34,855 bases of DNA from a virus: the IMG/VR virus record IMGVR_UViG_3300011116_001087, positions 1 through 34,855 of that record; one strand, 5' to 3'. The notes below the pieces were generated by a model, which saw only the letters and a program-made list of their open reading frames with translations, was not told where the DNA came from and ran no database searches. This document shows positions 32,778 through 34,855 of this stretch, piece by piece (the first letter of the stretch is position 1; each line of letters opens with the position of its first letter). Made by a program: the position numbers and the translations under genes.

Positions 32778-33680
32778 ATGTCGATGACAGAAGAAGAGTC
32801 TAGAGAACTTAAAAACAGTATTTTTGCAGCTAAGGCAGCAGCCGAAGGTACACCTTTTGCTGGTATGCCAACAAACAACGTACAATCTGCTACACAAACC
32901 GCAAAGCGTGATTTTGGGTTTGAACTACCTGTAGCAACTGTTCCACTTCCCTCGGGTGGAAAAGTATATCCTGACGGCCCACTACACATGGCAGAATCAA
33001 TCGATATCAAAGCCATGACAGCCCGTGAAGAAGATATTCTCATGAACCGTACCCTTGTTAAGAAAGGCACAGTTATCACAGAACTAATCAAGAGCTGCGT
33101 CATGGATAAAAGCATTGATGTAAATTCAATGATTTCTGGTGATCGTAACGCACTCATGGTTGCAGTACGCATCACAGGTTACGGCGCAGATTATTCTCCA
33201 AAGATCACTTGCCCAGCTTGTGAAACTCAACAAGATTGGTCACTCAATCTTGAAGAACTTCCAATTCGTGAATTGGATCTAGAAAAACTTCACCAAGTTG
33301 CACCGGGACAAAATGCATTTGAACTAGCACTCCCTGTATCAAAAAAGATTGTTGTGTTCAAGTTCCTAACCGGCAAAGAAGAAGAACGTATTCTACAAGA
33401 TCTTGAAGCCAAAAAGAAAAAAGGCATTATTCAAGATAACCTCGTAACAACCAAGCTAATGAACAGCATCATCTCAATTGATGGCAGCACAGAACGTGGC
33501 TTCATTAATCAGTTCTGTCAATACATGCCAGCAAGAGATTCACTTGTGCTCCGTAAGGTAATGGATGAATCTGAACCAGGAATTGATATGACCGCAGATT
33601 TTACTTGTAATTCTTGTGGACATACGGAGGTGATCGCCGTTCCACTCGGCGCTAGCTTTTTTTGGCCTAACGCCAAATGA
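32778..33680 (+). CDS. T4 gp26-type baseplate protein
   Basis: A 300-residue protein. FELPVATVPLPSGGKVYPDGP, IDIKAMTAREEDILMNRTLVKKG and a C-terminal FFWP ending match the T4 baseplate family (PF12322). Two zinc-ribbon halves (CPACETQQ and CNSCGHTE) are visible, and YMPARDSLVL is another conserved block. GGAGG seven bases before ATG 32778 decides the start over the TTG at 32772. It is a structural or assembly part of the tail baseplate and indicates a contractile tail. A T-run at 33657-33663 near its end allows a shift into the next open frame. Confidence 0.88.
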   Translation: MSMTEEESRELKNSIFAAKAAAEGTPFAGMPTNNVQSATQTAKRDFGFELPVATVPLPSGGKVYPDGPLHMAESIDIKAMTAREEDILMNRTLVKKGTVITELIKSCVMDKSIDVNSMISGDRNALMVAVRITGYGADYSPKITCPACETQQDWSLNLEELPIRELDLEKLHQVAPGQNAFELALPVSKKIVVFKFLTGKEEERILQDLEAKKKKGIIQDNLVTTKLMNSIISIDGSTERGFINQFCQYMPARDSLVLRKVMDESEPGIDMTADFTCNSCGHTEVIAVPLGASFFWPNAK

Positions 33681-33732
33681 CATTGAAGACGTTTTACTGG
33701 AACCTTGGTTCCTGCTCCAGTATTACGTCGGA

Positions 33733-33936
33733 ATGGATACAGCAACGTATTATAACTTACCTGTAGCTTACAAGAAATGGCTTATTAATCGAGTTGTAAA
33801 GGAAATAAACAGAGCAAACGATCAAAAGGCTGATATTCCAAGTAAGGGAGCCCATCATAACCCTCCAGACGTTAGAGCAATGGCAGGTAAGTTCAAACAT
33901 TTTGGAGCTAACGCAAAAAACCAACGCTTTACCTAA
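33733..33936 (+). CDS. Small tail-assembly-like protein, possibly expressed by frameshift
   Basis: A 67-residue frame from the first ATG (YNLPVAYKKWLINRVVKEINRAN, charged C-terminus). The open frame extends upstream to at least 33664 with sensible sequence (LTPNDIEDVLLEPWFLLQYYVG) but no ATG, GTG or TTG before 33733. The product may therefore be a fusion made by +1 or -2 shifting on the T-run of the preceding gene (about 90 residues after the shift). Small proteins with a LPV..K.W pattern follow gp26-type genes in related phages as far as I recall, which is a weak comparison. Confidence 0.6.
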   Translation: MDTATYYNLPVAYKKWLINRVVKEINRANDQKADIPSKGAHHNPPDVRAMAGKFKHFGANAKNQRFT

Positions 33937-33969
33937 CAAAAATCCTTATATGTGACATACTTTCCTGTT

Positions 33970-34281
33970 ATGTCACAACCCTATTACATCTACACAGTTG
34001 GTATTCCTATTTCCGTCATCGGAGAACTTTATCAGTTCGATGGCGAACGTTCCCAGTTGGGTTCACTTGATCAGCCCCTTGGTCGATTTGTTTTAACTCG
34101 TCCATTGGTTCAAAACAACCCAATCACACAAGCAACACCGGGAAGTAGATTCAATAAGTTAATCGTTAGACAATATGACAGGTTTAACAACCTGTTAAAA
34201 ACGGTTGATTACAATGATGTGCGTGTGTTAAACTTGATTGATGGTCCCGACTTAATCTTGGAGTTCACATATAAACCATGA
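33970..34281 (+). CDS. Hypothetical small tail-region protein, 103 aa
   Basis: Start ATG 33970 is chosen over GTG 33952; neither has a clear ribosome site. The beta-rich sequence (YYIYTVGIPISVIGELYQF, FNKLIVRQYDRFNNLLKTVDY, LILEFTYKP) could be a small baseplate or structural component. It overlaps the Tdk start as ATGA. No family was recognised. Confidence 0.65.
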   Translation: MSQPYYIYTVGIPISVIGELYQFDGERSQLGSLDQPLGRFVLTRPLVQNNPITQATPGSRFNKLIVRQYDRFNNLLKTVDYNDVRVLNLIDGPDLILEFTYKP

Positions 34282-34855
34282 GCAAAAAAACAACAAACGG
34301 CATTCTAACGGTATACGCTGGACCGATGTATGCAGGAAAAACAACAGCACTGATCGCAGAACTAGAAGAAGGAATGGAGGAAAATCGTAAAATGTTGGTA
34401 ATCAAACCAACAATCGATAACAGATATTCAGACGAAGACATTGTATCACACGATGGAACTTCTCTTCAACAAACAACAGGTCATAAAGTTAGAAGACTTG
34501 GAGTTGGTGACTCTCTTTATGTTGTTGAGTTGGATGAAATTGATTTGCTATTAATCGATGAAGCACAGTTCTTTACAACCCTTTGTAAAGAGTCGGTACA
34601 TGAATATCTGTCTCGTGGGATTGATGTTGTAGCTGTAGGACTTGACATGGATAGCGATGGGCGTCCATTTGGTTCCATGCCGCATCTCTTAACGATTGCA
34701 AACAACGTTTATAAACTAACAGGAATTTGTTCTGTTTGTGGAGATGAAGCTACCCACACGTTCCGTAAACTTACGGCATCCTCTTCTAATCAAGTTCTTA
34801 TTGGTGGAAGTGAAACATATGAGCCACGTTGCTTGCAACACTGGCTTGAAGGTCA
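34278..34855 (+). CDS. tdk: Thymidine kinase (3' end outside window)
   Basis: About 192 codons of a type II thymidine kinase that phosphorylates deoxythymidine. GPMYAGKTT (15-23) is the P-loop, LLIDEAQFF the Walker-B-like acidic motif and GLDMDSDGRPFG the lasso region. CSVCGDEATHTFR supplies half of the structural zinc site, and CLQHW the beginning of the rest. Only the extreme C-terminus is missing. It salvages dT into dTMP, complementing the ThyA route. Confidence 0.95.
   Translation, partial: MSKKTTNGILTVYAGPMYAGKTTALIAELEEGMEENRKMLVIKPTIDNRYSDEDIVSHDGTSLQQTTGHKVRRLGVGDSLYVVELDEIDLLLIDEAQFFTTLCKESVHEYLSRGIDVVAVGLDMDSDGRPFGSMPHLLTIANNVYKLTGICSVCGDEATHTFRKLTASSSNQVLIGGSETYEPRCLQHWLEG

Follow-up and report, generated by a model that had tools for sequence, protein, structure and literature searches.

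A probable +1 frameshift in the gp26-like tail assembly chaperone gene of a clade of environmental phages

In the G/GT system of phage lambda, two forms of a tail assembly chaperone are produced from one locus by frameshifting (Xu, Hendrix and Duda 2004; PMC5009743), and frameshifting in tail chaperones, +1 shifts included, is known (PMC5009743). A review describes G/GT frameshifting as conserved in the long-tailed phages "except T4". T4 has two separate and divergent genes, gp26 and gp51, which are said not to frameshift (PMC5009743, PMC10885494); PMC3004832 lists both proteins as chaperones for hub assembly. T4 gp26, the Pfam namesake of PF12322, and gp51 align with each other, which is consistent with T4 using two genes instead of a frameshift (PRFect paper, PMC10885494). 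A first-pass annotation of the DNA described here held that frameshifted chaperones were not known for this family. This is right in part only, because poly-T slippery sequences in T4-like TAC-N genes are cited as known in a 2025 paper (PMC12846349). In the open-licence literature, we found no report of a +1 class with its motif in the gp26 family, of a natural frame swap, or of GGAGG combined with a hairpin as described below, and as far as this literature was checked, a +1 class with a two-part upstream signal is new. Judging from comparisons of sequence, it is very probable that +1 frameshifting at YUU_UGG lets this locus yield both a short and a long form of a tail assembly chaperone of the lambda G/GT type.

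The gp26-like gene and its two reading frames

The window, by which we mean the whole stretch of DNA analysed, is an IMG/VR virus record of 34,855 bases that is classed as linear and is probably a fragment. The locus lies close to its 3' end (Table 1). The gp26-like gene, which likely starts at the ATG at 32778, preceded by GGAGG, belongs to PF12322 (T4_baseplate) in a profile search (E=3.6e-18, 66.5 bits, curated cut-off 24.5), and its protein also matches PHROG 150, baseplate hub (E=1e-21). The first-pass annotation had noticed seven T at the end of this gene (33657-33663), an anti-Shine-Dalgarno match 21 bases upstream of the T-run, and a downstream frame without an ATG until 33733, and all three were confirmed at these positions, as was its remark that a -1 shift is quickly blocked, in this case by TAA at 33668-33670. 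Because the window contains nine T-runs of at least seven bases, the T-run alone is not special; GGAGGTGATC is present once, and GGAGG-N15-30-TTYYTTTGGCCT, which combines the two elements, has a single match in the window, whereas 100 shuffles gave none.

Table 1. Features of the candidate frameshift locus, in window coordinates
Feature	Position	Strand	Basis
gp26-like gene, 0-frame short product, 300 aa	32778..33680	+	PF12322, PHROG 150, GGAGG ahead of ATG
Shine-Dalgarno-like element GGAGGTGATC	33626..33635	+	GGAGG 29 nt before P-site slip codon
Hairpin CGCCG-TTCCACT-CGGCG, from SD-like element to slip site	33635..33651	+	Synonymous randomisation, double changes (moderate support)
Putative slip site TTT TTT TGG; P-site TTT 33660-33662, A-site TGG 33663-33665	33657..33665	+	86/87 loci
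0-frame stop TGA, end of short product	33678..33680	+	Sequence
+1-frame extension, 90 aa plus stop TAA 33934-33936, to be reached solely via the shift	33664..33936	+	Homology in 84 loci, pN/pS
Predicted frameshift fusion, 385 aa (...ASFFGLTPNDIEDVLLEPWF...)	32778..33936	+	Inferred product; frame open throughout across the shift

In the mechanism that we propose, the majority of ribosomes would stop at the 0-frame TGA (33680) and release the short form, and a minority would slip +1 while UUU occupies the P site and UGG, a Trp codon, the A site. The tRNA-Phe would re-pair one base further on, again at UUU, and GGC would be read next, giving the 385-aa fusion. Both the slipping itself and its frequency are what we infer from the arrangement. 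The predicted +1 junction peptide, ...GASFFGLTPNDIEDVLLEPWF..., contains FFGL, whereas a -2 slip would give FFFGL.

Conservation of the slip site and of the extension

Searches with the window DNA or with the extension alone as query found no relatives, because the extension diverges fast, and the gp26-like protein was therefore used as the query instead; it recovered 51 phage records and 87 IMG/VR loci at 36-79% identity. The slip site was compared in a set of 87 non-identical loci from the wider clade of the window (the window, Mel-JY01, immuto, and 84 IMG/VR loci), which share kinship, so that binomial p-values overstate significance. In 86 of these 87 loci, (TTT or TTC)-(TTT or CTT)-TGG ends the gp26-like gene, with a second codon that finishes in T and an open +1 frame. 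The variants are TTT TTT TGG CCT (65 loci), TTT CTT TGG CCT (10), TTC TTT TGG CCT (9), TTT TTT TGG TCT (2), and TTT TTC TGG CCG (1), and TGG occupies the A-site position in all of them. Elsewhere in the same genes, TTT makes up 66% of the Phe codons and CTT 32% of the Leu codons. A scan of synonymous identity among sequence pairs below 70% identity ranked two codons of the gene highest, the slip codon (z 5.4) and the Pro codon that follows TGG (z 9.3); the latter reflects dual coding, because CCT gives Gly-Leu, nearly invariant in the +1 frame. Lesser peaks (z 2.1-3.3) fall on the Glu codons of the Shine-Dalgarno-like element and on the two codons preceding the second Phe codon. Two columns near the gene start, 47 and 62 (window residues 40 and 54), also score z 3.0 and 3.9, from few comparable pairs, and are unexplained.

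In only one locus, L055 (TTT TTC TGG), is the second Phe codon replaced by its synonym. Here +1 re-pairing is lost, and the extension lies in the -1 frame behind aaT TTT TTC, a canonical -1 heptamer; in other words, the coding frame has moved together with the slip site. In this natural frame swap (L055:3721-3771), a single case, GGAGG is kept and the best hairpin lies further from the slip site than elsewhere, at about 12 nt. A canonical -1 heptamer (X_XXY_YYZ) with an open -1 frame is absent in the window and present in L055, L010, and L012-L014.

The first-pass annotation had left the shift as either +1 or -2. A -2 ribosomal slip would enter the same frame with one extra residue, the run of seven T permits it in most loci, and phage Mu uses such a slip (PMC5009743). 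At TTC_TTT_TGG (9 loci), however, it would put tRNA-Phe on UCU, which excludes a simple -2 re-pairing there, whereas re-pairing on UUU in the +1 direction is possible in all the +1-frame variants; we therefore keep the +1 part of that proposal and regard the -2 part as very improbable. Slippage of RNA polymerase on the T-run could produce a fusion as well, seven T being present in the window and in most relatives. However, the T-run is just 3-4 bases long in 19 loci (TTTCTTTGG, TTCTTTTGG) that nevertheless retain the +1 frame, and the constraint on codon phase fits ribosomes, which makes a transcriptional origin very unlikely.

An extension of 58-119 residues follows directly after the slip site, in the +1 frame, in 86 of the 87 loci, and in 84 loci its homology begins at the first post-slip codon (GLT...). 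As in G/GT-type loci, the second ORF overlaps the first and continues in another frame without a start of its own. In 14 sequences from the nearest clades of the window, pN/pS between the slip site and the first ATG is 0.27 in the +1 frame (0.19 past the 0-frame stop), whereas the other frames give 1.0-2.4. Purifying selection acts on the extension right from the slip site, with pN/pS about 0.2, and the ATG at 33733 is an internal Met rather than a start. This ATG would nevertheless suit a reading of the small ORF as an ordinary separate gene, and public records, such as those of SP-15 and immuto, annotate it in that way. Against such a gene, no start codon is conserved (30 of 86 loci have no ATG, GTG, or TTG within the first 20 extension codons), homology and purifying selection begin upstream of any start, and the invariant slip codon would have no reason to exist, so that we give this reading hardly any credence. 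The first-pass annotation had named two results that would speak against a frameshift, namely a start of the small gene's own in relatives and a frame that is not conserved between 33664 and 33733; no conserved start was found, and over that stretch conservation is strong, with pN/pS in the other frames at or above 1.0. In the published genomes examined, the second ORF was missed or annotated as a separate hypothetical gene.

The gp26-like part and the extension were modelled separately. The predicted structure of the extension is a helical domain, for which a comparison with the PDB gave no convincing fold match. A weak resemblance of two extensions (L073:2656-2907 and L031:3848-4111) to the Pfam family DUF6760 falls short of the cut-off (E 0.004-0.007), and a search for DUF6760 that included control genomes gave no match. 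To the eye, the C-terminal part of T4 gp51 resembles the extension; hhalign does not bear this out (probability at most 1.5%), and we claim no homology.

The signal was seen again in more than 100 related viral sequences. A startless +1-frame ORF follows the gp26-like gene in LR756508, Mel-JY01, immuto, LIS04, SP-15, GXN1, BRock, and RM378, and a startless -1-frame ORF follows it in Munch, Atu_ph07, PA5oct, and PBECO4, all with T_TTT_TTC. The latter (L010, L012, L013, and L014) form a second clade, of large phages, with the -1 architecture and without the upstream GGAGG; in the records examined, their second ORF is unannotated or a separate hypothetical gene. A blind DNA pattern (GGAGG, 15-30 nt, slip site) found at least 79 loci in IMG/VR, and among the matches listed, 78 of 79 were gp26-like genes: 75 had the full geometry, three were cut by a contig end or lay just outside the thresholds, and one was a chance match. 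The contigs are partly shared with the 87-locus set, and the two sets are not independent. In a pattern scan across bacterial genomes, nearly all matches were due to chance; two of 83 had the geometry and one was real. This one (L266) combines the full signal with a homologous extension on a 3,119-bp contig that is assigned to a metagenome-assembled genome of an alphaproteobacterium, and is perhaps a phage contig binned with a host.

A Shine-Dalgarno-like element and a probable hairpin upstream of the slip site

GGAGG occurs within the 39 nt upstream of the slip site in 71 of the 87 loci, against 1.7% of segments of equal size elsewhere in these genes; the anti-Shine-Dalgarno match reported in the first-pass annotation is thus genuine, conserved, and not accidental. 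Where this stretch encodes a Glu-Val pair, its Glu codon is GAG in 77 of 78 cases (background 36%), and L003, L004, and L052, which do not have the pair, retain GGAGG at a different position. The conservation of GGAGG is well supported. Its distance to the P-site codon is 20 nt in 27 loci, 26 nt in 38, 29 nt in 12, and 24-43 nt in seven others, that is, 20-35 nt in nearly all loci. In published cases, a stimulatory Shine-Dalgarno sequence is spaced 3 nt from a +1 site and 9-14 nt from a -1 site (PMC5009743); the spacing here is outside these ranges and matches no known stimulator.

When the amino acids were held fixed and the codons redrawn from the same gene, the segment between GGAGG and the slip site was more stable than its randomised versions (mean z -1.5, s.e. 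0.13), whereas nine control segments from these genes lay between -0.23 and +0.23. For the groups with spacings of 20, 26, and 29 nt, the z values are -4.0, -1.2, and -2.1, with controls near 0, and after thinning -3.0, -1.1, and -1.8; the conservation of both GGAGG and the hairpin persists in 39 thinned representatives. Double changes affect two stem pairs in the clade of the window; outside it covariation is modest, and the register varies between clades. Selection for a hairpin between GGAGG and the slip site is moderately supported. In most loci, 4-8 nt separate the hairpin from the P-site codon. Downstream of the slip site, no stimulatory structure was detected (mean z -0.04 to -0.43).

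How might these elements act? GGAGG may pair with 16S rRNA and so stimulate the slip, and the hairpin may refold behind the ribosome and draw the mRNA back, an action that has been put forward for the 5' stem loop of T4 gene 60. It is quite possible, though slightly less likely than not, that two upstream parts together stimulate the +1 shift, namely the Shine-Dalgarno-like sequence at 20-35 nt and the hairpin between it and the slip codon, and that a large environmental clade of gp26-family phages uses this arrangement, which is not known to have been described for single-base frameshifts. Alternatively, the two elements could be unrelated to frameshifting, and could cause ribosome pausing that serves folding or help to keep ribosomes in place for restarting later. 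The spacing of GGAGG, unlike that of known frameshift stimulators, and the Shine-Dalgarno sequences that a review places near many gene ends (PMC5009743) fit such a role. However, no start codon lies at a usable distance in a consistent frame, the Shine-Dalgarno-like element stays close to the slip site and occupies another position in loci without the Glu-Val pair (L003, L004, and L052), and the hairpin signal is restricted to the segment between GGAGG and the slip site; we regard a role apart from frameshifting as possible but rather doubtful.

Tail-gene context and comparison with known systems

In immuto and SP-15, a sheath gene is followed in turn by a gene for a tube or completion protein, the gp26-like gene, the short ORF, and the tape measure gene; LIS04 has the same order from sheath to tape measure, with the short ORF unannotated, and the IMG/VR loci L026 and L089 agree with immuto and SP-15. 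In these five, the gene lies between tube and tape measure. The window departs from this order: the region after the chaperone (33952-34853) holds a 109-aa ORF and a thymidine kinase, and no tape measure follows. This arrangement is shared by the close clade of the window and points to a tail module that has been rearranged there. The model of the gp26-like protein (mean pLDDT 91.7) matches predicted baseplate hub proteins, and a Foldseek comparison with the HK97 chaperone 2ob9 gave a weak match (rank 8, E=4, probability 0.20, TM 0.46 by target length); the gp26-like profile had no match among solved structures. A function as tail assembly chaperone is indicated by the gene order, the two-form architecture, and the homology to T4 gp26, and the fusion would link the tape measure with the tube protein. 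Vladimirov and colleagues reportedly identified the T4-like tail assembly chaperones in 2022, under a title that is said to imply two genes in T4 instead of a frameshift, and PMC12846349 cites their work for the poly-T slippery sequences in these chaperones.

A frameshift joining the gp26-like gene to the downstream frame, as first proposed in the first-pass annotation, is strongly supported, and a tail assembly chaperone made by a +1 shift accords with the following observations: (i) the slip site is conserved, the +1 frame is coding from the first codon after it, and no start is conserved; (ii) frame and slip site were swapped together in L055; (iii) the relatives have a tail-gene context; and (iv) GGAGG and, with moderate support, the hairpin are under selection at the nucleotide level. 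The +1 and -1 forms within the gp26 family tie the two-gene arrangement of T4 to frameshifting relatives, and the order of events is testable. The conserved succession of GGAGG, hairpin, and slip site also offers a compact natural test of how distant anti-Shine-Dalgarno pairing and structure behind the ribosome bear on +1 slippage.

Lambda G/GT differs from the present locus in using a -1 slip in another protein family, whereas here the shift would be +1, the family is that of T4 gp26 (PF12322), and the signal elements lie upstream, not downstream. The chaperone of Pakpunavirus Adele and the Andersonviridae likewise has a poly-T slip site at the end of a short chaperone gene, but the shift there is -1 at GTTTTT, and the available portion of that paper describes no Shine-Dalgarno-hairpin element (PMC12846349). 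With the release factor 2 gene (prfB, CUU_UGA_C), the locus would share +1 re-pairing of a P-site YUU on UUU and an upstream Shine-Dalgarno-like stimulator. In prfB, however, the stop codon UGA is in the A site and the Shine-Dalgarno sequence is 3 nt away, whereas here the A site holds the sense codon UGG, TGG in 87 of 87 loci, the Shine-Dalgarno-like sequence lies far beyond 3 nt, at 20-35 nt, and no release-factor control is involved. Finally, the end of the hairpin 4-8 nt before the P-site codon invites comparison with T4 gene 60, where a stem loop likewise lies 5' of the shift codon and has been proposed to pull the mRNA 5'-wards; that system bypasses 50 nt, whereas the hairpin here would assist a shift of a single base.
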